Assembly: GCA_016839445.1 (NCBI GenBank)
Contig: JAEOUG010000065.1
Span: 1-37,668 of the forward strand
Source: Candidatus Thorarchaeota archaeon
Lineage (GTDB): Archaea; Asgardarchaeota; Thorarchaeia; Thorarchaeales; Thorarchaeaceae
Reading direction: 5' to 3'
DNA length: 37,668 nucleotides
In this document: positions 1 through 36,769 of the stretch, in pieces
How positions within the stretch are numbered: position 1 is the first letter of the stretch
Layout of the letters: every line of letters starts with the position of its first letter
Notes under the pieces: model-generated
The model's input: the letters and a program-made list of their open reading frames with translations, nothing else
The model's database searches: none
Told to the model about the DNA's origin: nothing
Translations under genes and position numbers: made by a program

Positions 1-3000
1 AGCTTGAACGAGTGACTTGCTGGATCATAGTCATAGAAGCCAGCGATTATCGTCACATCGTACGATGCTGGGTCGATACGAGTCCATGCTCCAGGCAGGA
101 CGCCCTCCCAATAGCCGCTAGTTGAGTTGTACAGAAGCGGAACCTGACTGCCTCGGAATCTGATGTATATCTCACCAGGAATGACCTGACTCTGCAAGAT
201 AGCATCGTTGTTGAAGGTGTCATTCAGGTAAACCTTGATCGGCAGCTCAGAACCTCTACCAATTGTCTTGACAGCTTCAGTTGGCTCTATGGCAACCATT
301 TCGGATGGGAGCGATATGATGACCAATGTCACAGTGGTCGTTGATGGGACATGATTGTCCTTTGTAGCGGTGATAATCAGAACGCGTGTTCCGGCCCCCA
401 AGGCAGTCGTGTCGATGTAAGCCTCGTAGCTCCCAGTACTGCCAATCTCGCCAATGCTGCCACCGAAAGCGCCTGACTGCCATGTGATAGATCCACCAGA
501 CAGCGGGCTTCCATGAAGATCATCAATGAAATTAATCAATACGTGAGCATCAGTGGTCCAGTTCAGCGTGAGGACAGACTCGACTGCGTTCAGGGACGTG
601 CTGATGAGCACTACTCCAAAGGAGGTCGTAAGGCTGGCAGTAGCGTATCCACTTCGAAGTGCGGTTATCCTGATCTGATGTGAACCCACAGTGCGGTCGG
701 ATGTGCTGAATGAGAGGTTGTAGACTCCCGGACTGCCGGTGACTGCAACGAATGTGTATCCGATGGGAACACTCTCGTCTGCTGTGTAGCGAACATTGAT
801 GGTGGCAGCGGTCACGCCGATCTGGGCATGGTCCAAGTCCGTGAAAGTGACCAGTAGCCAGACCACCTGAGATATCTGAGCTGTTGCTGGCTGAGGGGCT
901 CCAGCCTGAAGACTTGTCCATATCTGGTCCACCAAGCCATTCAGAGTAATCATGGTCTTGTTAGCGTAGAACGGAGAGAGCACAGGATTCCACTTGACAG
1001 TTATGTTGAATAGATACGTGCCAGTGCCTGAGCTCAGCCAGTTGGTATCGACTGTTATTGTGTATACGCCAAGGGCTTCAGCTAGCCAGTATGATTCTCC
1101 CAAGGTGAGCGTGTCGTTCCTGCAGCTGAACACTATGATTGCACCCGATACTGGAGCGTCTGTGTCAACGTCAGTAACAGTGATAGTGATGGTCAGAATA
1201 TCACCCTTCGGAGTGCGCTCGATCTGATCGGGCTCAACGAACATGGTCCTCTTCACTACAGAGAATCTGATTGTTGTGCTGTGGTCTGAGTAGTACGGAG
1301 AAGTGCCTCCATCCCAATCGACTACGAGCTCCAGCTCCAATCCTGTCTGCGGACTTGAGGTGATTAACGTAGATGGAATGGTCACTACATATGCAGAGCC
1401 ACTTGGAGTGACAGTGTATCCTCCCACAATCTGTGTTCCATTTGTGAAGTAGAGGAGTACGTTCGCCTGGGTTATGCTTGTGATCGGAGCGTCTGAATCA
1501 AGATCCGTGTAGACGAATGTGAAGACGACATTGTCTAGGTACTTCGTCTGCGAGGGAGGAACTGTGATCTCCAGTGTTGTCTCGCGTTCACGGAGATTCA
1601 CGGTTACGTCAACCGAGGCGCTGACGTAGTACGGCACTCCGCTCCAGGATGCCTGCACAAAGATGATGTGCGTCCCGAGGCCGCTGAGAATGTCAGTTTC
1701 AAGTTGAATCGAGTAGAACCCGCCTGCACTAGGAGTAAGTGTGTAGTCAACTCCCAGAGTCAACGGATTCGAGTTGTACTCAAGGTAGATTGTTGCCCCA
1801 TCAATGCCGGCATCGCCATCATCGTCATCCGTGTATTGCAACACAAAGGTGGCATCGAATCCATAGGGTGTTGTTTCCGAACTTGTATCAATGCTGAGCG
1901 TTGATTCTCTCTGACGGAATCGGAACTCGATGATGAGATCATCTGATGCGTAGAACGGCGATATGGTGTCGTAGCTCATCCTGAGCTGCATCGTGTAGAA
2001 GATGTTGACATTGTATCCTTGGTTCCATGTCTCCACTGTCAGGACATAGTAGCCAAAGGTTGGCTTCCATTCAATCGTGTAGTACCATGTGCCAGGAGTC
2101 ACTATTTCGAACGTAACGGGATAGCCTTCCGCTGATTCATTTGATATGTCCATCGAAGTGAACAAATCTTGGTAATAGAGAATTACTTCCATTGATGCAT
2201 TGTGGGGGATCCTAGAGATGGGCTCTGAGGAGAGCAAAGTTATCCTTTGCCTGACGTTGAAGTTCCTTGTCGCAGAAACGTCGAGAATATAGAACAGGCC
2301 TCTGCTCATCTCGACTCTCAATGCGTAGGTTCCAGGGGAGGCTACGAAGGTCGTGTTCAGAGTCACCTCATAGACACCGGGTGCAACTTCCATCCAGCTG
2401 TACTTGCCTCCATCGACGGGCGTTGCGCCAAGGAAGAGCTCCAGAGAGGCGCCAGTGATCCCGACGCTGGACCCACCCGTGACATCGGTCCAGGTCACAT
2501 TGAAGACAACCTCATCCAGATACTGCGTCGGTGCCGGAGCGAGGTACTCCAAGGATGTCTGTCTGGCAAGCACAGTCAGATAGACGGTCCTTCCGGTCCT
2601 GTTGGCGTAGAAGGGAACTCCATCCCACTTCACACTGAAGGTCATTGCCTTCGCCCCCAGAGAAACGAATTGGCTCGTGTCTATGTAGATAGTGAAAGTA
2701 CCGCCGGTTTCGCTGTAAGTGAACGCCACGCTCATCTCGATGATCAGATTCGGGTCATCACCGATGTAGGTTCCAGGGCCCGCAACGAGGTCCTCCCACG
2801 TGAAGGTGAATTGAGCGGTCTCGTTCCAGCTTGTTGCCGATGGCGGTGAGATTGACAGTAGTGTCTCCCTAGAGAGCACTCTGACAGTGATTGTATCTGT
2901 TCTGTTGCTGTAGAAGGGCGCTACTCCCTTAGACCAATTGACATAGACGTTCATGTAGATGTTGCCGATGCGGTCGAAAATGTTCGTGTTGAAACTGATG

Positions 3001-6000
3001 GAGTAGTTGCCAGGCTGAGTCGCAGAGAGATCTCCGATTGTGACCAATCCAAGGTCCACCGACTCGGTCGGGAACGCAACATAGACGAAAACATCGCCTG
3101 TAAGGTTAGTGATCCCCACGCCGCTATCGCTGAAGAAGAATACATAGCTCATGCCCTCTCCATAGGCTGTCGGATCTGATGCCACCAGAAGCGTGAGAGC
3201 AGACTCTCTTCCAATGACGTTGGCTGTGGTGACGAAGCTCTTGTCCTGATAGATTGCTACGACACCCGTCCAGTCGGCATATACTGTGAAGCTCTGGAGA
3301 CCGAGCCCAAACTGGTCGGCGTCAACGTAGATGAGATAGAACCCGTCGCCAGTACCATCATCGTAGGTGAAGGTCGACACAACTAGACCGGACGCATTGT
3401 GTACGTACAGGTCAACCTGCCCCGACCGGATGCCTACAGCGCTGTCCAGATCTCCGTAGTAGACGGATATCACGAAGGTGCCGATTGTGCTCACAGGCTC
3501 GATGGAACTGACCAGCCTGAAGTCTGTGCTGTGGGTTCGTATGGTCACAGTGATGGTGAAGGTTGCGGTCTTGTAGTTCGTTCCCTTAGAGAAGGTGAAG
3601 TAGTAGACCTGATTCTGGGAGATAGTGTCGGAGAGAGATGTATGGAAGGTTATCTGGTACTGCTGTGAACCAGGTAAGTACACAACAGAGAAGTTGCCCC
3701 AATCTGACACAACCTGCGTGTAAGGCGTCGTCGTGTTGTCAATGGGCACCAACCTGTCGAGGTCCGTGAAGTCCACCAGGAAGGTCGGCGAGTTGCCTAT
3801 AGGAATACTGAGAGACCCAACAGATGGTACTGCTGAGGTGTAGGCCTCTCTCACTACGATTCGGAACTCGAGTTCCTTTGACTCATGGTTGGCCTTGCTC
3901 GCTCTAAGGGTGATGTAGTAGGTGCCCTTCGCGAAGCCAGTCACATCGATCCAGACGCTATAGAGCCCTCCACCTATGTTGGTGGTGTTGATGATCCAAG
4001 AGGGGTGGTCCGGTGATGTTATTGTGGCACTATCAATCCCCGCACTGCTGTACGCTTCTGTGTAGTTCAGGATGATTTCCAGATTCAGATTGTATGGCGT
4101 AGTAACCTGCGGGAAGTTGGGCGAGGACAGGAAGGTGGCGATTTCAGTATACCTGAACCTAATCACAATCGTCGCGCCATCGTAGATGGAGCTGCTGGAT
4201 GTGAAGACGACAGTGATTTGGTAGTAGCCACCTGTGAAGTACGAGGTGTCGATGGTGAGACCATAGCGACCGATTGCCTGCTCAGTAGTATCAATGGCGA
4301 TGGCGTATCCTGCCACAGAGAACTCTCCAGATGATCGACCAATGACTGGATTGCCGTAGTTCGGTCCCTGCTCACTCACATTGAGGCGGAGGTCGATGGT
4401 GAAGTCCACCCCAATGGCGAAGTAGAGGCTGGCGGGATCGTGGTACATCATGACATCCATCGAACGTATCGTGACGACGAACTGGTGGTTAGATGGGTCC
4501 TGATAGACGGTGCTGTCAAGGTCAACAACAAGCGTGACTGTGTAGGAATTCACTCCCCAGGTGCTGGTGTCAAGAATCACGTTCAAGCTTGATAGAGAGG
4601 ACTCCACTTGCGAGCCGCTCGGGGGCCAAGTGAATGTCAGAGAAATGACATCGGTGTAGGCAACAGTGCCTCCTGTGTCAAGGTCCGTGATGACCACTGT
4701 TATTGGAGTAGTGTTGCCATAGGGTTGAGTAACGACCCCAATGACATTAACAGAAGTCCTGTGTGCCCTTATTGTGACGTCAAACTGGTAGTCGTCAGGC
4801 TGATAGTAGTCCGTGCTGGAGATCGTGACTCTGAGCGTCACCGTGTATACGCCAATATCCCATGTGTTGGTGGTCAGAGTCATATCATACGTGAAGAGGA
4901 AGCTCTTGATCTCCTGACCCTCTGAGGACGTGAAGTTGAAGGATGCAACGTCACCGATGTCGACGATAGTGCCTGTGTCGAGATCCAGCAGCACAACATG
5001 CAGAGGAACATTGTCGCCATAGGGAATTGTCATGGCGCCTGATACAGATATTGCGGTGTAGTGCTCTCTGATTACGACTGTAATGTCAACCGTCGCGGTG
5101 TTCATGTAGTCTGCAGACTTGGTTGCCTTCAGAGTGAAGACATGGTCACCGATGGACAGGCTAGCCGTATCGATGGATATGTAATATAGTCCGCCACCCT
5201 CCGAAACCACGTTGACTGGTGAGTCATCCCCGAAGGTTATGGTCGCTCCTTCTATCGGAGAGCCTGTATATGCGTCTGTGAACTCTAAGGTGGCTGTGAA
5301 GTCTTGTCCAACAGGAGTCGTTGACGCGTCGGTGTAGTCCAGATCGGTTTCATGGAAGAGATCGATCCAGAAGTGCTCTGTGGCGTCGTTGTAGTAGGTA
5401 TGAGTTGAGTCTACCTCAACTCTCCACCTCTTAGCGTCGCCAAGGTCGTTTGTGTCAAGCACTGCGCCGTATCTGCCACTTCCATAGTCGTCGAGGGTGA
5501 TGGTCGAAGGAGTGGTCCAGTTGATGGTAACAGTGGCTCCCGTGACGCCCGATGATGTGATGGAATCTCGGAGCTGATACTCAAGTATCACGGAGTCGCC
5601 AGCATTCTTGACAGTAATCCTATCGCCAATCGCATCGGTAGGCTTGTTCAGTGTCAAAGCAGAGTCATGCTTGACTATGAAGGTGCGCTCAAAGAGACCG
5701 GTCTTGTTTGTGACAAAGGTGCCTGAGTCATTGTAGTGCGCTGTGACGGTCCAGAGACCTGCTGGAGCGCTGGAGAGTGCCGTCGTTTCGACTGAGTGGT
5801 CGGGCGAGGTTGCCTGCACCTCCGAACCGGGAGCTGCAAAGGTGTCTGCGTCAGCTTGATTGTAGTACTCAGTTCGGTACCAACCTGCTGATCGACCAGA
5901 TTCAGTGGATATCCTTATCTCATCCAGTCGACCTGGGAACCATCCAGTACTACCGGGAAACTGGTCATCTGCATCTCCGCCTCCAATCCCCCAGTCAGCT

Positions 6001-9000
6001 GTGAACCCAAGGCTAGCCCATGATGCGGACCCAACAGATCCCGAGTCTGTTACGTCGTTTCCTTGGATGTAGATCTTGTTGTTAGAGGGTGTGCTGGAGT
6101 CAAGGACACAAGCAAAGTGATACCAGCCGGGGTTCCAAGAGTTGATTGTTGTCCACTTGTACATCGGATCACCGGGCCCACTCTCCACCTTGAAGACAAG
6201 TGTACCATTCGGAACAGATTGACTATAGTCCCCACCGACCAGAGCGATGTGCATGTCATAGTCGCCGCTGATGTACTTCTCCATTATGAGATAGGAGGTC
6301 GGCGACGAGGTTGAGAAGGAAGTGGCGAGCCTGAACCATCCAGATATCACCAAGTCACCATCTGGGTTCAGTGTGTCAGGAGCGAGAATCTGATCATTGA
6401 CACCGTCAAACTCCTGTCCAAAACCTGCCCTACCTGCGGCCTCCACGTTCCCGTATTGAACTGCATCATATTCGTTTCCGGAGGAGTCATAGTGTATGGC
6501 ACCAGAGGCTTCGTTCACGACGTCTTCGCCCAAGTGATAGACGGCCTCGTATCCGTTAGCCGACCAGATTGCCTCGGGATTCTCAAGGTTGTCTACGACA
6601 TCACTACCGTAGTACATTGTGATCGTGTTGACTTGACCATCGGTAAGGTTGGCTAGGACCCATGCAACAATCCGCGCTTCGGTTAACGTGTAGTCCTGAT
6701 TGAAGTACTCAATCTCATGAGGCAAAATGCCACTACCCATTGCGAACATGATATCTGAGCCGTCAGATCGTACCTTGGCAGAGTTGTGCAGATCAGTATC
6801 GGTGAAGTCCACCAACACCGGGAAGTTCTCTAGATCATCAAGTACCAGCGCGTCTGGTATTGTCAGAGTCTTGTGATACCTGAAGGCAGGGAACTTGTGA
6901 CTTGGATTGGTAGAGGTCGTGTTTGAACTCTGATACCAGATGGACCCCGTGGGGTCGGTCAGAGTGAAGCCCACAGATGCACCGAAGTACGTAGGAGTTG
7001 TTGCGAGGAACTTCATCTCGTCCCCAATGTTGAACGTGGCAGTGTCACCCAGAGCTTGCCCTGATATCCCCATTTGCAGATTCTCGACGTAGTTCTTGCT
7101 GATGAACTTGACAGTCCACATGCCCCAGAAGTCAATCGATGACCTGTTTATCGTGAGGTAGCCGCCACTGTACCACCAGTCTGTTCCAAGAGATTTGGGC
7201 TGGTTGTAGGGATTCAGCACTGCAGTGGGCTTCCACTCCGCCAAGGGATACTCAACGGTGAAGCCCATGTTGGTAACGCCTTCAGGAGGTGAAACCATCA
7301 CCTTGCCAGTCCAGTTGACGATGGTACTTCCGCTCTCGATGTAGAAGTCAGTGCCTGGATTGAAGTCGCCATCAAGAGTCTGGCCGATGCCTCCTATGTC
7401 CATGGTCACAATGACGTCCATGGTGACTGGGGAGAGTGAACTAGTAGTGAACGAAAGGCTTGTAGTACCTGCATCAGCCCAGGAGTCCACGGCGTCCCTC
7501 TGGGGGCTCACTGAATAGAAGCTTGAGGGATCATTCTGGTTGTTGTACTCAGTGTCAAACCATGATTCAGAGCGCACTAAAGGCGTAAGTCGGACTTCAT
7601 CTATCCTGCCGGCCCAGTAACGGGCATTCAGCAGGTCGTTGTTTCCTATGACGAACATGGCATCGGAATTGTAGATGGATGTACCACTAAACGCCTGATT
7701 GATTACAAGGACTCCGTCAAGATACGCCATGATTGAGCCTCTGGAGGCACTCCAAGACCATGCAATGTGATGCCAAGTGAAGTTTGAGGCGGATGCGACA
7801 CTCGTGTAGCTTCCGCCGGCGCCATTAGGGTCAGTCCAGAGCCTGGTGCACACATGATTGTAGGGATCCATTCGCATAGTCATGATGTGGTATGCAGGAT
7901 CTGTCGATGTCGATTTTGAGAATATCCTGGCATCCTTGTCCTCAGTGCGATAGACCCACGCACTCATAGTGAAGTCGGTCCAGTCATTTGTGTAGATTTG
8001 CCCAACAGAGATCAGGTCATTCGAGCCATCGAAATCCGTTGCATTACCTATCCTTCCAAAGACGAGATCTGAGGAGTCCATTCCTCCATAGGATGTACCG
8101 TCGTGGTTGTTGGACGTACTGTCATACAGGATGGAAGAGGGATCTTCATTCATGTGTTGCACAACCTCATAGTCGCTCCACACTTCGGTAGATGCGAGTG
8201 AATTCGCATATTGACTGCCATAACTCATTGTAATGGTAGTGTCCACAGAACCAGAGAGATCAGGAACCTTGACCCATGCCACGAGGTGTGAGTGCGTTCC
8301 ATTGCCTTTGAAATCGAACATCTCGATTTCGTGGTATAGTGGCTCGCCATCAATCATGAAGAGAATGTCAGATCCATCCGTCTGGACTTGCTCTCTCAGA
8401 TCCGAATCCCAAATATCAACTAGAACTGGAAAGTCGGTGAGGTCTGCCGCTACCTTTGTGTGGTCTATGATTATATCCTTCTCGAATTCGTAGAAGTTGA
8501 TGGTGTCCTCTGGTAGGGGAACCATGTATTCCACAAAGAGACGTGCAAGGTCCGCCCCATCATAACCAGCAGAGCCCTTGATGTTGACCCACCGCTGGTA
8601 GTAGTCAGCATTCGACAGATCAGCCATGAGGCAGATGTAGTTGCCCGCGTTCCAATTGTCACGGCTCACAACATTCTGAAGCAAGCCAGCGATTTCAGGA
8701 GACCTATATCGCGTGTCTGGAGACGTTATCCAGGAGTTGAGGGCCCAATTCACACTTGTCGGCACCCAACTGAAACGGTCTTCTAGAACTGGTAGGCCGG
8801 CAGTGAACGCTGAAACGTCGTCTTCGTCTGCAACGTAGAGGCGCATGGCATAGAGGCGAGTCCCCGATGCACCCTGTGCTTCCATCTCGACCCATGCACT
8901 AGTTATGATTGCGCCCTGAGGTATGTCAACAGGAAACTGAAGTCCAAGCTGGAAGAGACCATCTGTGTACCATCCACTCGAGGAGTACATCCCCACTTCA

Positions 9001-10073
9001 ATGGCGCCATCGTTGCTGTATCCATCTAAATCGATTCCAGCGCCGCTCGTCTGATCGTAGCAATCTCTGTTCGCATCGTCAGGAACGTATGGATAGATGC
9101 TGTAGGATTCAGACCCCACGATAGCAGTGCCGTTTGCCCTTAGGTCAATCTGCTCGGGGAATGGTCGAACAGTGAAGTCGACCACTATATCGTCGACTCT
9201 ACCATAGACGCTATTTGCTGACGAGGTTCCCGTCAGGTCTGTGGCAATTCCAATCTTGAATTGGGTCACATGCTCGTCGAGGTTCTCCATGGAAGAAGCG
9301 GGGATAGAGATGGAAGCACTCAGCCAGGTGTTCTGCGTGTCCCCGGACTCAAAGACGTGGAACTTGTAGTAGTAGCCGCCAATCTCAACGAAGAGATGCA
9401 ACTGGTCGTTCATGGACGTAGCTGATACTCTGTACATGAATGAGATATCGGCGGAGTAAACCTCTCTCCAAGGAAGTGACACCATCTGAGAGATGTAAAT
9501 CTCATCACCAGCAGCGTGTGACCAGCTAGAGCTATAGCTTGCATAGAAAAGCGCGCTCCGTCCGGAATACCCGGTGGAGTCGCTGTCAGCCTCGTAGACG
9601 CCATGAATTGGGTGTGGATTGTCAGATGGCACGTCCTTGATGATTGTCCAGCCATCCGGAACATCTACTGTGTCGTCGTTTTCAGAGGTGGAACCAGTAA
9701 CGACGAACTTCTCACTGTGGTAACTGTTGAGATTACCGTTGTCAAGCACATCCTCCATTGTGACACTAAGACCCTGGAGTTCCGCGGCAAGGTTCGTTCC
9801 AGTCCAGCCGTCCGTGAGTGTGACCGAACTTATGCCCGGAGTGCTCGAATCGAAGGTGAGAGTCCCATCATCAGAGAGAATCGTACCGTCCCTGACGACT
9901 CTCAGCGCAGGCCCCGTTCCAGTGCTGGGGTCACCAGCCTTTGCATAGGATTCGTATCCCTGCGGAAGCGGGGGAAGCCCCTCAGTTAGCAGACTAGGAT
10001 CTGCTTCCGGAAGAGCCACTGGCATTAGAAAGACGATAATGAATAGGACGGCTATCGGAACACTCTTTCGCAT
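1..10073 (-). CDS. Giant secreted/surface multidomain protein, C-terminus outside window
   Basis: An uninterrupted frame runs from ATG 10071-10073 to the window edge: 3,357 complete codons and no stop. A GAGGAGGA ribosome site lies 7 bases before the ATG. The N-terminus is a clear signal peptide (MRKS followed by a hydrophobic stretch to about residue 22). A beta-rich jelly-roll-like region follows at about residues 90-300. Then come two DUF2341-like domains (about 524-648 and 1064-1191), each followed by a LamG/concanavalin-like domain (about 661-848 and 1208-1408). From about 1450 to the edge there are roughly 18 Ig-like modules of 95-115 residues, linked by V-x-(I/L)-R-(E/Q/A)-x-(T/S) segments. 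Such proteins normally sit on the cell surface and bind glycans or other cells. The membrane anchor or sorting signal must lie in the missing part. The role is inferred; the frame and domain pattern are seen. Confidence 0.9.
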   Translation of the reverse strand, partial: MRKSVPIAVLFIIVFLMPVALPEADPSLLTEGLPPLPQGYESYAKAGDPSTGTGPALRVVRDGTILSDDGTLTFDSSTPGISSVTLTDGWTGTNLAAELQGLSVTMEDVLDNGNLNSYHSEKFVVTGSTSENDDTVDVPDGWTIIKDVPSDNPHPIHGVYEADSDSTGYSGRSALFYASYSSSWSHAAGDEIYISQMVSLPWREVYSADISFMYRVSATSMNDQLHLFVEIGGYYYKFHVFESGDTQNTWLSASISIPASSMENLDEHVTQFKIGIATDLTGTSSANSVYGRVDDIVVDFTVRPFPEQIDLRANGTAIVGSESYSIYPYVPDDANRDCYDQTSGAGIDLDGYSNDGAIEVGMYSSSGWYTDGLFQLGLQFPVDIPQGAIITSAWVEMEAQGASGTRLYAMRLYVADEDDVSAFTAGLPVLEDRFSWVPTSVNWALNSWITSPDTRYRSPEIAGLLQNVVSRDNWNAGNYICLMADLSNADYYQRWVNIKGSAGYDGADLARLFVEYMVPLPEDTINFYEFEKDIIIDHTKVAADLTDFPVLVDIWDSDLREQVQTDGSDILFMIDGEPLYHEIEMFDFKGNGTHSHLVAWVKVPDLSGSVDTTITMSYGSQYANSLASTEVWSDYEVVQHMNEDPSSILYDSTSNNHDGTSYGGMDSSDLVFGRIGNATDFDGSNDLISVGQIYTNDWTDFTMSAWVYRTEDKDARIFSKSTSTDPAYHIMTMRMDPYNHVCTRLWTDPNGAGGSYTSVASASNFTWHHIAWSWSASRGSIMAYLDGVLVINQAFSGTSIYNSDAMFVIGNNDLLNARYWAGRIDEVRLTPLVRSESWFDTEYNNQNDPSSFYSVSPQRDAVDSWADAGTTSLSFTTSSLSPVTMDVIVTMDIGGIGQTLDGDFNPGTDFYIESGSTIVNWTGKVMVSPPEGVTNMGFTVEYPLAEWKPTAVLNPYNQPKSLGTDWWYSGGYLTINRSSIDFWGMWTVKFISKNYVENLQMGISGQALGDTATFNIGDEMKFLATTPTYFGASVGFTLTDPTGSIWYQSSNTTSTNPSHKFPAFRYHKTLTIPDALVLDDLENFPVLVDFTDTDLHNSAKVRSDGSDIMFAMGSGILPHEIEYFNQDYTLTEARIVAWVLANLTDGQVNTITMYYGSDVVDNLENPEAIWSANGYEAVYHLGEDVVNEASGAIHYDSSGNEYDAVQYGNVEAAGRAGFGQEFDGVNDQILAPDTLNPDGDLVISGWFRLATSFSTSSPTSYLIMEKYISGDYDMHIALVGGDYSQSVPNGTLVFKVESGPGDPMYKWTTINSWNPGWYHFACVLDSSTPSNNKIYIQGNDVTDSGSVGSASWASLGFTADWGIGGGDADDQFPGSTGWFPGRLDEIRISTESGRSAGWYRTEYYNQADADTFAAPGSEVQATSPDHSVETTALSSAPAGLWTVTAHYNDSGTFVTNKTGLFERTFIVKHDSALTLNKPTDAIGDRITVKNAGDSVILEYQLRDSITSSGVTGATVTINWTTPSTITLDDYGSGRYGAVLDTNDLGDAKRWRVEVDSTHTYYNDATEHFWIDLFHETDLDYTDASTTPVGQDFTATLEFTDAYTGSPIEGATITFGDDSPVNVVSEGGGLYYISIDTASLSIGDHVFTLKATKSADYMNTATVDITVVIREHYTAISVSGAMTIPYGDNVPLHVVLLDLDTGTIVDIGDVASFNFTSSEGQEIKSFLFTYDMTLTTNTWDIGVYTVTLRVTISSTDYYQPDDYQFDVTIRAHRTSVNVIGVVTQPYGNTTPITVVITDLDTGGTVAYTDVISLTFTWPPSGSQVESSLSSLNVILDTSTWGVNSYTVTLVVDLDSTVYQDPSNHQFVVTIRSMDVMMYHDPASLYFAIGVDFTIDLRLNVSEQGPNYGNPVIGRSSGEFSVAGYAIAIDTTEQAIGRYGLTIDTSYFTGGYYQITVVFTSSSSIYDGATIVIRFRYTEIATFLSSPNFPQVTTPYNLNLEIILNYTEAYSSAGIDSATITSPDHPSWIINTTNIGGGLYSVWIDVTGFAKGTYYITLRASKANHESKELEFRIVVREAYTSAVPSVGSLSIPIGNSPTFLVDFTDLDRLVPIDNTTTPYTQVVSDWGNFSVVYLPGSQQYQITFHTSLSDTISQNQVYYFTFSKGTNYKTATFTITVTIRTHSTDFRLVSSIEPVSTIGTFVISVYYGDLDSAVGIRSGQVDLYVHNASGLVVSTFTYDDGTGDGFYLIYVDADQFGLGLQSFTVYADWTGVVAIYQDKSFVTTANVIGRESALTLLVASDPTAYGEGMSYVFFFSDSGVGITNLTGDVFVYVAFPTESVDLGLVTIGDLSATQPGNYSISFNTNIFDRIGNIYMNVYVNWSKGVAPFYSNRTDTITVRVLSRETLLSISPPSATSWNETAQFTFTWEDLVAGPGTYIGDDPNLIIEMSVAFTYSETGGTFTIYIDTSQFVSLGAKAMTFSVKWDGVPFYANRTGRTVYLTVLARQTSLEYLAPAPTQYLDEVVFNVTWTDVTGGSSVGITGASLELFLGATPVDGGKYSWMEVAPGVYEVTLNTTFVASPGTYALRVEMSRGLFYILDVSATRNFNVRQRITLLSSEPISRIPHNASMEVILYYQDLFTSMDISNESAEGYPVTFEIVTPGTWYYTIEWKPTFGYYVLTVETWNQGYNVNIFYTMQLRMSYDTISPFYASDDLIIEFRFRQRESTLSIDTSSETTPYGFDATFVLQYTDDDDGDAGIDGATIYLEYNSNPLTLGVDYTLTPSAGGFYSIQLETDILSGLGTHIIFVQASWSGVPYYVSASVDVTVNLRERETTLEITVPPSQTKYLDNVVFTFVYTDLDSDAPITSITQANVLLYFTNGTQIVGGYTVTPSGSAYVVTIPSTLITSSPQTGLELELVVDWDGGTSPYYSDHSTTIRFSVVKRTMFVEPDQIERTPKGDILTITITVTDVDTDAPVSGAIIVFSCRNDTLTLGESYWLAEALGVYTITVDTNWLSSGTGTYLFNITVKWNPVLSPFYANKTMITLNGLVDQIWTSLQAGAPQPATAQISQVVWLLVTFTDLDHAQIGVTAATINVRYTADESVPIGYTFVAVTGSPGVYNLSFSTSDRTVGSHQIRITALRSGYATASLTTSFGVVLISTSLNAVESVLTLNWTTDAHVLINFIDDLHGSPLSGGSITWQSGAFGGSIGEIGSTGSYEAYIDTTALGAGTRVLIITATKDNHVPSTTTVTLVIISLPSEMVAIEPTEAVKTIGRGSELPIKVYLNDTFNNDAILQSQVIPGEIYIRFRGSQVPLLYNSTSGYWEGVLPGAWTRIDPASYDVTIIAGFYDYDPASHSFK
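3..5700 (-). repeat. Array of about 18 degenerate Ig-like modules (protein-level repeats)
   Basis: Linker motifs recur about every 285-345 bases, near 5670, 5365, 5065, 4770, 4460, 4150, 3850, 3530, 3210, 2870, 2570, 2240, 1915, 1590, 1245, 930, 600 and 315. Typical linkers read VTIRAHRTS, VVIREHYTA, VLARQTSLE and LRERETTLE. Each module carries a (Y/F)-T-D-L-D segment and a G-x-Y near its end. The repeats are diverged at DNA level, so this is an old array and not a recent tandem expansion. Confidence 0.75.
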
Positions 10074-10182
10074 CTGGTTGTCCTCCTCAGGTCGACCACC
10101 TGATTTCCATACTACACAGTATGTTGTTCGGAGTATCCACTCTCGACTGGCCTTCCAACGCGGACACACATAAGAAGTAATT

Positions 10183-20316: not shown

Positions 20317-20372
20317 TTGACTCACATTGCACAGTTTCAATGACGTTGAGAGGTTTGTATCTCACGGAGACG

Positions 20373-20380
20373 CTTATTTG
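20373..20380 (+). promoter_or_regulatory. TATA-like box of the acidic zinc-ribbon gene
   Basis: CTTATTTG lies about 50 bases before the GTG at 20429 and predicts a transcript start near 20402. It is divergent from the gltX promoter. Confidence 0.35.
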
Positions 20381-20428
20381 GGGAATTTGGGGAACCTAAG
20401 TAGTAAATCTCGACTCAGGTGCGAAGTA

Positions 20429-20740
20429 GTGTCCGAGCTCAAGTGTTGTAAGAGATGTGGTGCCTTCTACACCTGCACGCACAAGGGCGAATGCTGCCCT
20501 GAGTGCCAGTGGTATGATCCCTCAGACAATGTCTGTCTGGCACTGCCCGAAAAGAAGAGGTTGAAGCGCCGGGAATCAGTGGAAGAGGGTAGTCCCGAAC
20601 TCGACCCGGAGACCTTCCTCTTCGAGGACGATGATGAGGACGAAGACCTGGATGTAGCCGAAGATGCGGGCCTCTCTGATGATGATGATGACGAGGACCT
20701 GGATGAAGACTTCGACATCGATCTGGATGAGGACTGGTAG
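20429..20740 (+). CDS. Small zinc-ribbon protein with long acidic tail
   Basis: The 103-residue product has a compact cysteine cluster (LKCCKRCGAFYTCTHKGECCPEC, residues about 4-26) that should bind zinc, a basic patch (KKRLKRRES), and a tail of about 55 residues that is nearly all Asp and Glu. I chose GTG 20429 because AGGTG lies 7 bases before it; the longer frame from TTG 20327 has no ribosome site and a poor N-terminus. Acidic tails of this kind are known from histone chaperones and other binders of basic proteins, so a chromatin or ribosome partner is conceivable, but no family is recognised. Its stop lies 2 bases from the stop of the convergent YdjM-like gene. Confidence 0.75.
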   Translation: MSELKCCKRCGAFYTCTHKGECCPECQWYDPSDNVCLALPEKKRLKRRESVEEGSPELDPETFLFEDDDEDEDLDVAEDAGLSDDDDDEDLDEDFDIDLDEDW

Positions 20741-20742
20741 CT

Positions 20743-21525
20743 CTAGGTTGGGAGATTCAGGAAGTACAGCCCCAGCAGCGCAACTGCTACCCACACAAGT
20801 CCTGTAGCATGACCCACGAGCCAGTTGCGAGCCCCTTTCTTACCTATCTTGATTGGCCCAAGGGGTTTCAATCCTGCCGGTGCACTCTGATCCGGATCTA
20901 CTGCTCTCCATACTATCTCCAGCGGGTTTGCATCACTTGGGAAAATGTCCAGATAGAGATGCGAGGCATATCCAAGAAGGAAGAGGGCTGTGACATAGTA
21001 CTCGACCTCAGCACCTACTGCAAGGGGAGAGCCGGCATCCGCTATCCGAGCTGCTACACTAACGATTGTAGTCATCGTGACAAGAAGAGGCAAGATCATG
21101 CTGTGGAAAATGATGTTGCGATGACGCGAGATACCCAGGAAAGGAATGTCCCAATCGGGCATGAGTGCCCCGGTGACTGTTATCAGGGCCCCAATGAAGA
21201 TGGAGATGTTGCCATAGACCGCGACGCCAGTGGTATACTGGTAGACGAGGGTGCCACCAAGCGAGCCCAGACAGAACAATACAAAGGACATGGCGCCTAC
21301 AGCCCCCTTGTTACTCGTGGTCCGAATCTTCATGTTCTTGTGGGGTGCTTTGTAGTAGAGTATGGGGACGCAGACAATCACTGCCACCACTCCACCCGCA
21401 CCATAGTAGAACATCAGTTCAGCCAGTGAGCCGAGGTCAGACATGTACACTGAGAAAGCGTAGAGCAACGTGTACAGGCCAACGAATAGCGAGAAAGCGA
21501 ACACCATGTGCGATACTCTGTTCAT
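20743..21525 (-). CDS. YdjM/DUF457-like membrane metal-dependent hydrolase
   Basis: The 260-residue polytopic membrane protein has about seven hydrophobic segments and the metal-site pattern of the YdjM (DUF457) family: His6 in the first helix, PDWD at 123-126, HRNIIFH at 135-141 and HLYLD with His189 and Asp193. The fold resembles membrane phospholipase C-like enzymes, so it may act on lipid head groups; the substrate is unknown. The ATG has GCGGAG 9 bases upstream. It starts 47 bases after the EAP30-domain gene on the same strand and is probably in its transcript, linking a membrane enzyme to an ESCRT-II-like protein. Confidence 0.8.
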   Translation of the reverse strand: MNRVSHMVFAFSLFVGLYTLLYAFSVYMSDLGSLAELMFYYGAGGVVAVIVCVPILYYKAPHKNMKIRTTSNKGAVGAMSFVLFCLGSLGGTLVYQYTTGVAVYGNISIFIGALITVTGALMPDWDIPFLGISRHRNIIFHSMILPLLVTMTTIVSVAARIADAGSPLAVGAEVEYYVTALFLLGYASHLYLDIFPSDANPLEIVWRAVDPDQSAPAGLKPLGPIKIGKKGARNWLVGHATGLVWVAVALLGLYFLNLPT

Positions 21526-21572: not shown

Positions 21573-23933
21573 TTATTTCTTTCCCCGTCGCAGGCCCGGA
21601 AACCAGTACTGTGTACTTCGTGAATAACTCCTTTGCTCCTTGGCGACTCCGGTTTCCACAAGCAGCGACAATGCCTTTCTTGCTCGCTCCTCAGTCCAGT
21701 TCAGCCCAACTACAACATCCTCGAAACTAAGATTCCCCTCCCGCTCCGCTGCGAGACCAAGTACTAGTTGAGGATCGTCAGTGAGCGCAACTGGCACGAA
21801 TTCCACAAGAAGCGCGCCTCCCTCAAGTGTTGAGAGGCCTTGGATCAGCCCTTCACCAGACATATCGTTGATAATGCTCTCAACCTCGTCACTTTCAGTT
21901 GCCCACCCGAGATTGTCAAGTCGAACAAGAAGCTCGGAAAGCAACATGATCCCTCCAGACTGCTTGGACTCCTCGGCTGTGCGGAGGATGTCCCTCCTCA
22001 AACCGTCTCTCCGGTCGTCCCTCTTCAATAGCCTTCGAACCATGCCTTGCTGCTTCTTTGCCTCTGCTATCCAGGCTTCTGGCTCGTATCCGAGCTCAGT
22101 AAGCAGCTCGGAAAGCGCGCTGCGATATGCAGGGATGGATAGGAGGGTCTGCCCCTGCGTCTCAAAGGCTTCTCCAAGTCGCTCGCGAATGACGTCGAGT
22201 CTCCTAGCGCGGTCAACGAGCTCGTCCAGGCGGGCTGCCACTTGCTCCTCGTGCGAGAGGGGTGTCAGAACGATAGGGATGGTCACATCATCAACAGCAT
22301 CAAGGACGAATTCAAAGACACGATCGGAGTGTCCTCTTGCTCTCACAGTACCCTCGTAGCGGCTCTTGGGAAGGAAGGTCTCAACGATGCCCCTTCTGTC
22401 CGACTCAAGGACCAACGCGCCAAGTTCAACCTCTGCACCCTCAACTGCTCGGCCTGACTCATCGTGTATGTGGAATCTCACCCTACAGCCTGAACCGTCA
22501 ATGGGAGAAATCGTGTGCCGCCGAGTCCGTTTTCTCAGGCGCCCCTCAGGAATCGAGGAAATCATCTTCTCGAGATCTTCGAGCATCTGAGGCTTCAGTA
22601 GACCATCAGCTACAAGGGAGCGGGCTCCATCAAGAATGATCCTTCGAGAGGACTTCAATGACAAGAGATTGTGCTGACTTGACAACTCCCGAATGCGTTT
22701 CCTGAAGGTGACATCTGTGTTGGCATAGTCCTCGAGCATGGCTCTCAGGGCGTCTATGGCGTGGGACGAGGACGTGAACGTATCAACGAAGTCCTTCCTT
22801 CGCCCTATGGCTTCGTCGGTGTCTACGAGATGAGAAGGTGGATAAACGCGAACCTGGAGAAGGCCCTTCTTCGTATAACCCACAATTACGAACGGAACAA
22901 GTAGGCTTGTGTCAGTTCCTTCAGAGTCTAGGCTGGCAGTAATGGAGATGTTTGCGATATCGCGCTCCAATCGATCGATTGCCTTCTTGGCCTGCTCAGC
23001 CTTGGCCTTCAAGTTCTCTGACTCTGATAGGATCTTCTTAGAGCTCTCTCCGATAGAGCCCGAGATGGATTCTCTGCGGCCCAGGTCTCTTTTGAGAGCG
23101 GTCTTCCGGGCATCCAGAGTCCTCATGACGTCTTCTTCCTTGGAAGAGTCTGATCCTGAGGATCGAACCCGCACTAGTTCTGCTTCAAGCCGCTCTATCT
23201 GGTCTTCGAGGGATGAGATTCGTTGCTCCAGTCTTGACAATGCAGGACCTGCATCGGCTTCGAGGACTCCGACGATGGACTCGACCTTTCTAGATATCCT
23301 AGCAGGGATTTCATCTACTAGCAGAGGGCCAGATTCCAACGACTCCATAGTGGTTCGTATCTGTTCAACTGCGGCATCAAAGTCCTGGGACTGCAGAATC
23401 CCAGGAAGTAGTATCGAATAGTCCTCTGTGTCTTGTCGAGAGGGGCGCTCTATGAAACGGGCCACACCCGGGGCAAGAAGGCCGCTCAGCAGTCCGAGGA
23501 ATGAACGGTCCTCGGACAGACTGATCTTGTCTAGCTCAGCATTCGCACGTTCGATGCAAGCAAGTACATCCTTGGAGTCTCGCGCATCCTTAAGGCAGTT
23601 CTCTATGTCCTGGCAATCTATCCGAGGGACTATTCTAAGGGACTCACTAGCTATTCCTACTTGCTCAATGAGACAGTGACGTCCTGAGCTTGAGGCAGGA
23701 ATCAGTACGACAGGAAGGTACCCCTTGAGAAGGAACTCCAGGTCCCTTCCCTCACTCTCCTCGATGGCCCTGATCGTCATCGAGGCCAGGAAGTATTCCT
23801 CTGGTACAGCCTGCTCCATAGGTTGACCGCCCGCCAGCTGCAGCTTCCTAGTGGCTGCGGCTGGAACAATGAGTCTTCGGCGGTCCATCTTCCTAAGTAT
23901 CTCCGAAGAGAGAACCAAGGCAATGCTTTTCAT
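21573..23933 (-). CDS. Coiled-coil protein with C-terminal ESCRT-II EAP30 (Vps22/Vps36-like) domain
   Basis: The 786-residue product has an unrecognised N-terminal part (1-215), a coiled coil (about 229-330), a mixed segment (343-460), a small beta-sandwich resembling carboxypeptidase-regulatory domains (482-558), and a C-terminal region (560-786) that reads like a full EAP30 domain. IPAYRSALSELLTELGYEPEA (600-620) fits the helical part before the first winged helix of SNF8/Vps22. SGGIMLLSELLVRL then starts the first winged helix, and LNWTEERARKAL with YWFPGL near the end marks the second. Eukaryotic SNF8 is about 260 residues, so this is a large fusion. The frame starts at ATG 23933; ATG 23888 fits better with the TATA-like box at 23938-23945. 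No other ESCRT gene is nearby. The domain call is strong; the cellular role is inferred. Confidence 0.8.
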   Translation of the reverse strand: MKSIALVLSSEILRKMDRRRLIVPAAATRKLQLAGGQPMEQAVPEEYFLASMTIRAIEESEGRDLEFLLKGYLPVVLIPASSSGRHCLIEQVGIASESLRIVPRIDCQDIENCLKDARDSKDVLACIERANAELDKISLSEDRSFLGLLSGLLAPGVARFIERPSRQDTEDYSILLPGILQSQDFDAAVEQIRTTMESLESGPLLVDEIPARISRKVESIVGVLEADAGPALSRLEQRISSLEDQIERLEAELVRVRSSGSDSSKEEDVMRTLDARKTALKRDLGRRESISGSIGESSKKILSESENLKAKAEQAKKAIDRLERDIANISITASLDSEGTDTSLLVPFVIVGYTKKGLLQVRVYPPSHLVDTDEAIGRRKDFVDTFTSSSHAIDALRAMLEDYANTDVTFRKRIRELSSQHNLLSLKSSRRIILDGARSLVADGLLKPQMLEDLEKMISSIPEGRLRKRTRRHTISPIDGSGCRVRFHIHDESGRAVEGAEVELGALVLESDRRGIVETFLPKSRYEGTVRARGHSDRVFEFVLDAVDDVTIPIVLTPLSHEEQVAARLDELVDRARRLDVIRERLGEAFETQGQTLLSIPAYRSALSELLTELGYEPEAWIAEAKKQQGMVRRLLKRDDRRDGLRRDILRTAEESKQSGGIMLLSELLVRLDNLGWATESDEVESIINDMSGEGLIQGLSTLEGGALLVEFVPVALTDDPQLVLGLAAEREGNLSFEDVVVGLNWTEERARKALSLLVETGVAKEQRSYSRSTQYWFPGLRRGKK

Positions 23934-23945: not shown

Positions 23946-23992
23946 AGATTCAAGTCGCGCCCTGTGCCAACATGCCGATGGAAGGTCTCAGA

Positions 23993-24376
23993 ATGAGCGA
24001 GGAAAACCATCTCCTTCTTCCGTATTGCCCCTACTGCGGCAACTACAAGGGAGTCGGAGTATGCCCCGATAGGAATTGCCATGGACACAGCCAAGAGAAG
24101 CTCATGTCATACAGCGCCTCCAAGATCGAGACACAGCCCAAGGACCGCAGAGGAATGTGTGCAATATGCGGAGAAGTGGCTGTCAGCATCTGTGGCTCTT
24201 GCTACGGGTTCTATTGTGAGAAGCACAGCCAGGGCCGAGAAAGAGAAACGCTTGACTCTATGAACCAAAGGCTCGGCACATGCGCCGTGTGTGGAAGGCT
24301 GGTATGTGAGCATTGCTGGATTCTTGACAAGAAAGGCAAGATTATGTGTCTTCAGCATCTTGAGCATGTCCGATAG
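23993..24376 (+). CDS. Small multi-zinc-finger protein
   Basis: The 127-residue product carries three cysteine/histidine clusters: CPYCGNYKGVGVCPDRNCHGH near the start, CAICGEVAVSICGSC with a following C-x2-H near the middle, and CAVCGRLVCEHC with C-x2-H at the end. The last two resemble B-box or RING-like cross-brace zinc modules, which suggests protein binding rather than catalysis. I chose ATG 23993 because AAGGT lies about 7 bases upstream; ATG 23972 is in frame but lacks a ribosome site. It is the first gene of a plus-strand run that includes the longin-GTPase. No exact family is recognised. Confidence 0.75.
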   Translation: MSEENHLLLPYCPYCGNYKGVGVCPDRNCHGHSQEKLMSYSASKIETQPKDRRGMCAICGEVAVSICGSCYGFYCEKHSQGRERETLDSMNQRLGTCAVCGRLVCEHCWILDKKGKIMCLQHLEHVR

Positions 24377-24474: not shown

Positions 24475-25590
24475 ATGCCAGAAGCAACCTTTGTAGTCCA
24501 ACTTGATGACCTGCATGGCTTCGTAGTGAAGCATCGCCATCCCGCGAAACTCACACTGAATGAGAGGATTCTCAATCTGCTCTTCTATGAGCAGCAGAAA
24601 GCGACTCGTGAAGAGGTGAGCTACGCGGAGATAGAGGGGTTGAAATTCATCACCTACAGCTCTCCCGCATATCCTGGAATGATGGTATGCTCCATTCTCG
24701 GCCCTGACGAAACCGTGGCGGACGTTCGCAACGAAGTGTCAGGTTCCGGCAGATTGATTCTGGCCCTCATGGCCGATGATCCTGAGGCTGTAGACTTGGC
24801 CGAGATCCTCAAGAGTGGTAAGACACTCTCGGGGCTAACGGACGAGCAGAGATTCGCAGAGATCTTCTTGACACCATCATCCGCTCTTCTTCTCGAGAGG
24901 ATGCAAACAGAGGGCGTTGAGAAGTCAGCCAAGCTCTCAATCTGGTTGAAGAGCCAAACACAGAGCGACGAAGTGGACATCCGTGAGGCTATGGACCCTC
25001 TAATGAAATCAGGCGTAGTAAGGGTCGAGATGGTTGGGAAGACAGCGGAAACAGTATTCCTAGTGAAAGACCTCTTCGGATTCAGAGAACCTCCCGTCGA
25101 GTCTGTGGCAAAGGCAATAGAGATGATGCCATCAATGGCGCAGAAGTATCGCAGCTTCGTGGCCGAGTTCTTCTCTCCACCACCTCCGAACAAGGGCTAC
25201 AATCCGACGATTCCTGTGTATGACCCCAACTCCCCCATATTGGAGGACCGAGAGCACATCTCAAAGCTACTCTCAGACAGGCTTCACTTCATGGTTCTGG
25301 ACTGCCTCAGGGAGCAACCACTCACTGCGGCCCAGATCTCAGAGAAGACCGCCCTTCCAGAGGCGGCTGTCATGAAAGTCCTCTGGTCACTGGAATCAGA
25401 GAAGGTCGCGGTCAGATTCGAGGAAGAGGATGTCTGGGCCCTCCTGACGAACCCAAGAATCCAGGCGTTCATGCCCGAGTATCTATTGCCTATAGTTGCG
25501 AAGAAGCTATCAGAGAAAGAGATTTCACCGGAGGCTGCTCGCCGACATATCCAACTCCTAATAGAGAACTGGGGTGAACAGAGTGATTAG
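24475..25590 (+). CDS. Longin-like N-terminus plus winged-helix protein, GTPase partner candidate
   Basis: The 371-residue product matches no family I can name. The first 100 residues (FVVQLDDLHGFVVKHRHP, then a helix, then several strands) have the order of elements of a longin/roadblock-type fold; this is inference from the pattern. Two winged-helix-like parts follow: about 145-205 (ending VFLVKDLFGF) and about 265-325 (HFMVLDCLREQPLTAAQISE). A proline-rich linker (PPPPNKG) lies between them. The C-terminus is helical. Its last codons overlap the start of the longin-GTPase gene, so the two proteins are made together and may bind. It could be a GTPase regulator or an adaptor with ESCRT-II-like architecture. 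Confidence 0.7.
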   Translation: MPEATFVVQLDDLHGFVVKHRHPAKLTLNERILNLLFYEQQKATREEVSYAEIEGLKFITYSSPAYPGMMVCSILGPDETVADVRNEVSGSGRLILALMADDPEAVDLAEILKSGKTLSGLTDEQRFAEIFLTPSSALLLERMQTEGVEKSAKLSIWLKSQTQSDEVDIREAMDPLMKSGVVRVEMVGKTAETVFLVKDLFGFREPPVESVAKAIEMMPSMAQKYRSFVAEFFSPPPPNKGYNPTIPVYDPNSPILEDREHISKLLSDRLHFMVLDCLREQPLTAAQISEKTALPEAAVMKVLWSLESEKVAVRFEEEDVWALLTNPRIQAFMPEYLLPIVAKKLSEKEISPEAARRHIQLLIENWGEQSD

Positions 25591-26434
25591 AAGCGTCTAT
25601 GTTCTCGGCGAACAAGGGAACATGATATACTCCAAGGACTATGCCAAGAGTGAGCACAAGGATAGCCTAGTGGAGTTCCTCGTGAACCTTTCACAGTTCC
25701 TCAGGACAGTTGACCTTGAGGAGAAGACCGAGCATATGAGCGCCGCAGTTTCAAGGATATTCTACACCAAACGAAATCCGTTCACCTTCATGTTCGTGGC
25801 CGACAAGGCAGACGACGCCACACAGATAGACGAAAAGATGGGACAGATGGTTGACTTCTTCATGAAGGACTACGCCAACCTGGCCCTCGCGAACCAACCT
25901 CTTGATGGCTTCGACGAGAAGGTCGACGAGATTGCTGTCACCATGGTCAAAGTGGCAATCCTTGGCTTCGCAGGCGTTGGCAAGACAACCACCCTCCACC
26001 TCCTCCGTGGAGAGACCCTACCACTCGTACACGACCCGACGATAGGCGTTTCAATCAAGAAGTTGCCTGAGGAAGTTGAGAACGCCAACATCGTGCTCTG
26101 GGACCTAGCAGGGCAGAGCCGCTTCAGCATACTGTGGGCCAAGATGATAGCCAATGCGCAAGTAGTCATCATCGTCACAGATAGTACTCTGGAGAATGTT
26201 CTCCGTAGCAAGAAACTAGTGACGCTTGTCAAGGAGGAAGTCCCTGATGCGAAGGTCATTGGCATTGCGAACAAACAGGACCTTCCAACGGCGCTCACGC
26301 CAGAGCGAGTGGGCCAGATTCTCGGCATCCCAACCTACGAGCTTGTCGCCATCGATATCTCATACAGGGACCGCCTGATTTCAATCATCAGGAGAGCCAT
26401 TCTTGAGGGCAAGGCTGAGGCAAAGGCAGCCTAG
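25583..26434 (+). CDS. Arf/SR-beta-like small GTPase with N-terminal longin-type domain
   Basis: The product has two parts. Residues 1-118 (IRSVYVLGEQGNMIYSKDY at the start, strands ending FTFMFVADK, then helices) follow the pattern of longin domains. Residues 120-283 are a Ras-superfamily GTPase of Arf/SR-beta type: P-loop GFAGVGKTT at 128-136, switch I Thr in HDPTIG at 153, DLAGQ at 174-178 with the catalytic Gln, and NKQD at 230-233. The G5 motif is weak (AIDIS). There is no C-terminal prenylation-type cysteine; if it reaches membranes, the longin part or a partner must bring it. I chose GTG 25583, which has GGGGTG 6 bases upstream; GTG 25574 is also in frame. The start overlaps the preceding gene by 8 bases. 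Confidence 0.88.
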   Translation: MIRSVYVLGEQGNMIYSKDYAKSEHKDSLVEFLVNLSQFLRTVDLEEKTEHMSAAVSRIFYTKRNPFTFMFVADKADDATQIDEKMGQMVDFFMKDYANLALANQPLDGFDEKVDEIAVTMVKVAILGFAGVGKTTTLHLLRGETLPLVHDPTIGVSIKKLPEEVENANIVLWDLAGQSRFSILWAKMIANAQVVIIVTDSTLENVLRSKKLVTLVKEEVPDAKVIGIANKQDLPTALTPERVGQILGIPTYELVAIDISYRDRLISIIRRAILEGKAEAKAA

Positions 26435-35275: not shown

Positions 35276-36769
35276 CTAGGGGTTGTAAGCGAATGGATGC
35301 CTTGCCGAGTCCTTTCTTGAGAGGATCTCCTCAGTCGACTGGCGTCCTTCGATGGCTCGCCTCAGAGCATGTCGTACTGCGATGAAGTTGTTGATGTGCA
35401 CACGCTTCGGGTTTGCCGCACTTGGGTGGACGAACACATTGACTGCAAGAATGAGATCACGAACGAGCTCTTCTGGTATGATTCGGTCTGTAATCGTTCG
35501 TCGCACTGCATCAACGACTGCTTTCTGAGCAACATCATACACCATTCTCCGATGGTCTTCCGATGTTATCGTCACAGTGGGAGCGAACACCGTTGTGAGT
35601 TCCAGGTCCTTGATTTTGGTCGATGAGTGGAAGTTCTCCGAGATCTTCCCTGCGTGCTTGACAGCTTCCTTCATTGGACCGTCCCGCAGGCCCATAACAA
35701 GATCAACGTGGGCAACCTCAGTTCCTCCGCCAAAGAGTGATTCACCATGAAGTAAGGTGAGGTCAGACACTGTATCTGGAACCTGCCCCACAGCTCTCGG
35801 ATAGTCCTCCGCGACAATCGAGCGATTGCCCATCCTGAATGTGACAGGCCCACGCTGGATCATTTGTAGGTCCTCCAGGCAAATGCGAATCTCATCAATG
35901 TCCCCGTAGCCGAGAGAGTCGCCCTCCTGGAGGGGCTTCCGAGCGTTGCCAACAGGAACTCCAAGCATGTTCAGAGCTGCCTTGACAGCCAGCCCGCCGC
36001 CACGATTGACGAAAATGCGAACGATTCTCTGGATGCTTCTCTGGGCGATGCGAGCCCCTTTGAGGTCACCCTCCTCCAGCAGAGTCATCATCCGAATGTA
36101 GCGATCCGGAAATACGTTTGCGCTAGCCAGAATAGCTCCATCGCAACCTGACGCCAAAGCTGGCAGAGCAACCTCGTCGTGTCCAACCACTACTTGGAAC
36201 TCGTCAGGCTTCCTCACAAGAATGGTCGTGAGATTGATCAAGTCGCCGCTCGAGTCCTTCATGCCTGCGATGCCATCAATCTCTCTGAGGCCATCCACGA
36301 GGGTCCAGTGAAGTGGAACCCCTGTGACCTGAGGAATGTTGTACAGGAATATGGGAATCTCTGAACTCCCTGCCACCTTCTCGAAGTGCTCATAGATCTC
36401 CTTCGCTGAGGGCTTCAGGAAGTAAGGGGTCACTACCAGTGCAGCAGAGGCACCTAGCTCGGCAGCTCTACGGGTCAGCTTGATGACGTCTCCCGTGTAT
36501 GCAGCGCCAGTGCCCGCCATGACAGGAACACGCCCCTTGGCTGCTTCGCAGGCAATCCTGATGGCCTCAACCTTCTCCTCGAAGCGCATGCTCGTGAACT
36601 CCCCGGTCGTGCCGCAAGGCACTATACCGGTGGCTCCCGCCTTGATAGTGTAGTCAATGAGATTACGATACTGCTTTTCGTTGACGCCGCCCTCAGTGAA
36701 AGGAGTAACGAGAGCAGGGTACACACCTTTGAATCTGAAATCACCGTCGTACACTGTCTTCACCCCCAC
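35276..36769 (-). CDS. DapA/NanA-type aldolase fused to formaldehyde-activating enzyme (Fae) domain
   Basis: The 497-residue product has two catalytic-type domains. Residues about 13-300 form a class I aldolase of the DHDPS/N-acetylneuraminate lyase family: CGTTGE at 52-57, LYNIP with Tyr143, and GMKDSSGD with Schiff-base Lys171. Residues about 340-476 match Fae, which joins formaldehyde to tetrahydromethanopterin: GGTEVAHVDLVMG at 348-360 with the catalytic His354, VTI at 399-401, IIPEELVRDLILAVNVFVHP at 430-449. The start is GTG 36769 or GTG 36763; the latter makes a GTGA overlap with the upstream gene, so the two are co-translated. Known Fae fusions are with hexulose-phosphate synthase; this one is with a pyruvate-type aldolase. 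A 4-hydroxy-2-oxobutanoate (pyruvate plus formaldehyde) aldolase linked to a C1 carrier is a plausible guess. Confidence 0.85.
   Translation of the reverse strand: MGVKTVYDGDFRFKGVYPALVTPFTEGGVNEKQYRNLIDYTIKAGATGIVPCGTTGEFTSMRFEEKVEAIRIACEAAKGRVPVMAGTGAAYTGDVIKLTRRAAELGASAALVVTPYFLKPSAKEIYEHFEKVAGSSEIPIFLYNIPQVTGVPLHWTLVDGLREIDGIAGMKDSSGDLINLTTILVRKPDEFQVVVGHDEVALPALASGCDGAILASANVFPDRYIRMMTLLEEGDLKGARIAQRSIQRIVRIFVNRGGGLAVKAALNMLGVPVGNARKPLQEGDSLGYGDIDEIRICLEDLQMIQRGPVTFRMGNRSIVAEDYPRAVGQVPDTVSDLTLLHGESLFGGGTEVAHVDLVMGLRDGPMKEAVKHAGKISENFHSSTKIKDLELTTVFAPTVTITSEDHRRMVYDVAQKAVVDAVRRTITDRIIPEELVRDLILAVNVFVHPSAANPKRVHINNFIAVRHALRRAIEGRQSTEEILSRKDSARHPFAYNP

Follow-up and report, generated by a model that had tools for sequence, protein, structure and literature searches.

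Results

A multidomain EAP30 protein at a conserved thorarchaeal site

The window, the whole 37,668-nucleotide stretch analyzed here, belongs to contig C25 of a Candidatus Thorarchaeota genome. On its reverse strand, a reading frame at 21573-23933 is open across 786 codons. Orthologues share a conserved 'MD..LIVP' start that corresponds to M16 of this frame (base 23888), and because relatives begin there the true protein is probably 771 aa long rather than the full 786-codon frame. Residues of the head, hairpin, sandwich and EAP30 domain are counted from M16, and residues 560-786 of an earlier, sequence-only reading of this DNA correspond to 545-771. The features of the fusion gene and its surroundings are as follows.

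21573..23888 (-): whole fusion gene from the conserved start shared by relatives, 771 aa plus stop; 34 more orthologues share 39-54% identity with it
23394..23888 (-): first (N-terminal) half of the head, residues 1-165, with both beta strands and helices; AlphaFold2 (AF2) pLDDT mostly 76-96 per ten-residue block
22947..23390 (-): antiparallel coiled-coil hairpin inserted in the head, residues 167-314; AF2 model and coiled-coil sequence matches
22551..22946 (-): second (C-terminal) half of the head, with a beta hairpin at 327-349 and a helical domain at 374-446; AF2 model
22263..22493 (-): transthyretin-like/CarboxypepD_reg beta-sandwich, residues 466-542; Pfam PF13620 and Foldseek
21585..22256 (-): complete EAP30 domain, residues 545-768; sequence and fold matches, conservation
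20743..21525 (-): YdjM-type membrane protein, downstream on the same strand as the fusion; flanks the site where the fusion is missing
23972..24376 (+): 134-aa cysteine-rich protein, divergent neighbor, Cys/His pairs identified by eye; detected in 18 of the 30 loci with orthologues
24475..25590 (+): 371-aa winged-helix protein, conserved neighbor; retained where the fusion gene is missing
25574..26434 (+): Arf/Ras-type small GTPase with an N-terminal domain, conserved neighbor; retained where the fusion is missing

Loci with orthologues were retrieved by an alignment query of contigs, a single-protein query having given no match; 29 of the 30 are labelled Ca. Thorarchaeota and one Lokiarchaeota. 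Matches over most of the protein place the fusion gene in 35 of the 47 genomes of the window's family; the 181 other Asgard genomes gave none, and a profile of the N-terminal part reached nothing better than 0.002 outside the family. The gene order is GTPase, 371-aa winged-helix protein, in some loci the cysteine-rich protein, fusion, YdjM-like protein, acidic protein and GluRS, with the fusion at one conserved site in every locus checked. Five genomes (G184, G187, G189, G218 and G219) keep the main flanking genes and lack the fusion at this site. In a quick phylogeny of the flanking proteins, this absence amounts to four changes, most simply accounted for by four losses from one old site. The clean absence in these five genomes makes the fusion gene accessory, and the persistence of the neighbors where it has been lost means that they do not need it. 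The cysteine-rich neighbor was considered as a functional partner and rejected, as it is undetected in several loci that retain the fusion.

Three other genes of the window deserve mention in their own right. A small protein (20327-20740, +) with a cysteine cluster, a very acidic tail and a weak FYDLN_acid match is conserved beside GluRS. A giant protein of at least 3389 aa (3-10169, -) reaches the contig end, and its sole match is DUF2341. The frame at 35276-36769 (-) joins a dihydrodipicolinate-synthase family domain to a formaldehyde-activating enzyme (Fae) domain.

The EAP30 domain is complete and of Vps22 type

The sequence-only reading had described the C-terminal part as a complete SNF8/Vps22-type EAP30 domain, and this holds: residues 545-768 are a full-length, genuine EAP30 domain, comprising a helical domain (545-640) and two winged helices, WH1 (641-698) and WH2 (703-768). 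Using phmmer against solved structures, human SNF8 was matched at 2.9e-9 over residues 567-781 (numbering of the 786-codon frame), and an alignment-based profile improved this match to 1.6e-11. A profile made from canonical Asgard Vps22 alone gave 146.5 bits over positions 25-244 of its 247, the best of 500 shuffled controls reaching 5.1 bits. The Pfam EAP30 model (PF04157) behaved less uniformly, scoring the fusion protein alone at 18.8 bits, under the curated cut-off of 26.8, but matching 16/16 aligned orthologues (best 4.2e-7). Profile searches thus return EAP30/Vps22, and placement in an unrelated winged-helix family, which would have undone the earlier assignment, was not borne out.

The comparison with SNF8 and Vps36 that the sequence-only reading proposed came out in favor of the former. 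The top Foldseek match of the AF2 model is SNF8 (1.5e-6), followed by beta-sandwich domains, yeast Vps22 (1e-4) and VPS36 (1.5e-4). EAP30 sequence scores were 55.8 bits for SNF8, 29.2 for yeast Vps22 and 0.7 for a piece of VPS36; with the alignment profile, SNF8 is present and VPS36 absent among the matches listed at E<=1. Judged by sequence, the EAP30 domain of the fusion is of Vps22 rather than Vps36 type. It is also the best-conserved part of the protein, the majority residue accounting for 73-80% compared with 45-63% in the remainder, and the WH2 core residues W731, R735 and FPG 763-765 are invariant in 27 orthologues; the W, R and FP are also retained in aligned Asgard Vps22. Canonical Vps22 is a stand-alone protein of about 250 aa with an N-terminal lead helix. 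In the alignment, other domains of the fusion occupy the place of that helix, and we therefore call it a Vps22-type EAP30-domain protein and do not class it as Vps22 itself.

Head, coiled-coil hairpin and beta-sandwich

An AF2 model built from 27 sequences has a mean pLDDT of 83, the relative placement of its domains being uncertain (pTM 0.54); a prediction from the single sequence reached a pLDDT of only 44 and was set aside as poor. In the AF2 layout, two halves of a head (1-165 and 315-446) enclose the hairpin and are followed by the sandwich (466-542) and the C-terminal EAP30 domain. The model thus contains the coiled coil and small beta-sandwich that the sequence-only reading had described as fused to EAP30; that reading had missed the N-terminal head, the position of the start codon and the genome's other EAP30 gene, described below.

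The hairpin spans about 150 residues and consists of two helices in the AF2 model, 167-244 (78 residues) and 248-314 (67 residues). Its sequence matches are mainly coiled-coil families, and those to KIF21A, paralemmin and similar proteins were discounted as coiled-coil matches. For the sandwich, Pfam PF13620 reaches 2.8e-5 at best among relatives' domains, and Foldseek aligns it to 5aq0 with a TM score of 0.85 of the target.

Among the best 50 Foldseek matches there is no solved relative of the N-terminal half of the head, whose profile gives confident E-values only within the thorarchaeal family. The helical part of the head (365-444) is homologous to uncharacterized proteins of about 545 aa from other Asgards (L203, L205-L208 and L210; hhalign probability 93%, E 2.9e-7), which share with the fusion this helical domain and a coiled coil. 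A 697-aa protein, L204, shares the helical domain, the N-terminal part of the head and a coiled coil between them; both halves of the head align weakly with it, residues 1-165 matching its residues 195-374. Unlike the fusion, the three of these proteins that were scanned have neither an EAP30 domain nor a CarboxypepD_reg match. Because the head has these relatives, the thorarchaeal fusion resembles an Asgard head and coiled-coil protein that has gained a sandwich and EAP30, the order of events being our inference. The L204 gene (L204:2-2092, +) encodes a weak longin match ahead of its fusion-like head and coiled-coil module.

ESCRT genes elsewhere in the genome

ESCRT genes of the genome were sought family by family. 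An ordinary ESCRT cluster lies on contig C104 and encodes Snf7, Vps4 with MIT and Vps4_C domains, Vps25 and an EAP30 protein. The fusion gene, on C25, is unlinked to it and lacks the canonical Asgard setting beside Vps25, Vps4 and ESCRT-III genes; as the sequence-only reading had noted, the window holds no Vps4, Snf7 or Vps25 homologue, all of these being on C104. In total the genome has one Vps25, two Snf7 and one MIT-bearing Vps4-like ATPase, the other Vps4_C match being a 729-aa frame on C18. The Snf7-family (ESCRT-III) gene outside the cluster is at C68:30327-30812 (-) of genome G000. A weak EAP30 match on C20 was rejected: it covers a winged helix only, in a reading frame that on visual inspection looks like an MCM helicase.

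The genome-wide search for another Vps22/36-like gene thus yielded one, in the cluster (L034:3469-4260, -; orthologues in L095-L106). Residues 18-95 of its product match VPS28-type proteins of other Asgards and residues 108-253 match the SNF8 tandem winged helices; it is without the EAP30 helical domain, which the fusion protein retains. Many other Asgard lineages encode a VPS28-type protein and a full-length EAP30 protein in two separate, neighboring genes. The thorarchaeal cluster protein is probably of the SB-Vps22 kind (cog.002769) of Makarova et al. (2024; PMC10936438). It is also found in genomes without the fusion, and five checked genomes keep the ESCRT cluster in the absence of the fusion. 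The fusion is a second EAP30 protein beside this cluster-encoded VPS28-like/SNF8 fusion. The suggestion of a second, specialized ESCRT-II-like system goes too far: the single Vps25 (a count to be read with an assembly about 90% complete in mind) and single MIT-bearing Vps4, both in the ordinary cluster together with another EAP30 gene, make a second full system unlikely.

A first search for ubiquitin was positive in 0/14 control genomes and was repeated with Asgard positive controls. The repeated search found ubiquitin in 0/47 genomes of the family and in 14/15 other Asgard genomes, in agreement with Hatano et al. (2022; PMC9192718).

Descent and other second EAP30 proteins of Asgards

A tree was built on the tandem winged helices alone, leaving out a UEV-bearing EAP30 protein as a long branch; a tree with human SNF8 met long branches and was for that reason not used to place SNF8. 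The fusion clade (100/99) is separate from the thorarchaeal cluster clade (100/100), which is placed among the cluster-encoded Vps22 of other Asgards. The fusion groups with off-cluster second EAP30 proteins of other Asgards (L112, L119, L125, L127, L129, L133, L135 and L138) at 94/94, short of decisive. An origin by recent duplication from the thorarchaeal cluster gene is at odds with the position of the fusion in the best tree but is not rejected by the AU test (p 0.153).

Two of the off-cluster genes, L135:9888-10679 (-) and L138:9848-10723 (-), encode a zinc ribbon joined to EAP30 and are additional to the canonical Vps22 of those genomes. The UEV-bearing protein (L153:771-1616, +; 282 aa) joins a UEV-like (E2 variant) domain to an EAP30 tandem winged helix, that is, Vps23-type and Vps22-type modules. 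Since such zinc-ribbon and UEV proteins exist, a second EAP30 protein with a variable N terminus may be a feature found more widely among Asgards. Diverse ESCRT-II architectures have been described by Makarova et al. (2024; PMC10936438); the text of that paper does not mention the combination of head, coiled coil, sandwich and EAP30, which its figures or tables may list.

Discussion

Our analysis places the fusion protein among, and apart from, known EAP30 proteins. Like eukaryotic and Asgard Vps22/SNF8, it has the helical domain and tandem winged helices at full length with common motifs, and SNF8 is its closest solved relative in sequence and fold. Unlike Asgard Vps22, it lacks the lead helix (MGLREIEKK) and has in its place some 540 residues comprising head, coiled coil and sandwich, and it is encoded outside the ESCRT cluster. 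Like Vps36, it has an N-terminal part before the EAP30 core and is the second EAP30 protein of the cell, but its sequence scarcely matches Vps36, it has no Pfam match to GLUE or PH, and none is among the Foldseek matches listed, where the head is without a solved match. With the thorarchaeal cluster protein it shares a genome and SNF8-type tandem winged helices, the cluster protein differing by the VPS28-like part that replaces the EAP30 helical domain. With the off-cluster EAP30 proteins of other Asgards it shares the position of a second EAP30 gene away from the canonical one; those proteins are 227-386 aa long with zinc-ribbon or plain helical N termini, and no head, hairpin or sandwich was seen in them.

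We lean, by a little, towards the fusion being an ESCRT-II adaptor whose EAP30 core docks onto the machinery and whose N-terminal modules bind cargo or membrane, a Vps36-like role without ubiquitin. Its tandem winged helices would bind the cell's single Vps25, as those of Vps22 and Vps36 do, and thereby reach ESCRT-III; its EAP30 partner may be itself, in a homodimer, the cluster EAP30 protein, or neither. The head, hairpin arm and sandwich would bind cargo, membrane or a small GTPase, bringing ESCRT-III and Vps4 to a particular place. We favor this reading because EAP30 homology spans the full domain in both sequence and fold, because the WH2 core is invariant and one Vps25 and one MIT-bearing Vps4 are available for sharing, because ubiquitin was not found in the 47 family genomes, and because some second EAP30 proteins of other Asgards carry an N-terminal zinc ribbon or UEV module. 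The higher conservation of EAP30 is what one would expect if this domain has to match an unchanging partner and the targeting part is free to vary. Against this reading we count the five genomes with the cluster but without the fusion, the lack of linkage to the cluster, a sequence nearer to Vps22 than to Vps36 and the uncertain domain placement in the model. The fusion is probably an extra, dispensable ESCRT-II subunit sharing the existing machinery, not a separate system.

The fusion could instead pair with itself and bind Vps25 as a homodimer, substituting for the cluster EAP30 protein and giving two alternative ESCRT-II complexes at different sites. It has retained the EAP30 helical domain missing from the cluster protein, Asgard Vps22 homodimers have been found (Hatano et al., 2022; PMC9192718), and thorarchaeal Vps22 interacts with itself in yeast two-hybrid; a single Vps25, however, is equally compatible with a homodimer or a mixed dimer, and we regard separate homodimeric complexes as rather unlikely. 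A lower probability still attaches to the fusion having left ESCRT, its EAP30 domain now serving as a scaffold or a nucleic-acid-binding winged-helix module, for example in a process of the neighboring GTPase and winged-helix protein. The location outside the ESCRT cluster, the conservation of these two neighbors and the existence in another Asgard of a relative of the head and coiled coil that also carries a weak longin match speak for such a departure, but EAP30 is full length with its signature motifs intact, and the neighbors persist after loss of the fusion. Chance similarity of an unrelated winged-helix protein is scarcely credible: the window's own sequence does fall below the Pfam cut-off, but the gap between the Asgard Vps22 score and the best shuffle, the first rank of SNF8 in sequence and fold and the matches of all aligned orthologues refute it.

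A mixed ESCRT-II in Thorarchaeia is a tentative proposal, to our mind on the doubtful side. Here the fusion would partner the VPS28-Vps22 fusion as the second EAP30 subunit and would be a counterpart of Vps36 assembled independently, recognizing cargo or membrane without ubiquitin through its head and coiled-coil arm. If so, ESCRT-II arrangements with two EAP30 proteins would be older than the eukaryotic Vps22/Vps36 pair or would have originated independently of it. Hatano et al. (2022; PMC9192718) described one Vps22/36-like gene per Asgard genome and no Vps36. Most genomes of this thorarchaeal family hold two EAP30 proteins, and several other Asgard lineages have an off-cluster second one. 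The origin of the eukaryotic Vps22/Vps36 pair, and ESCRT recognition in Asgards that lack ubiquitin, thereby become testable with two or three expressible proteins.
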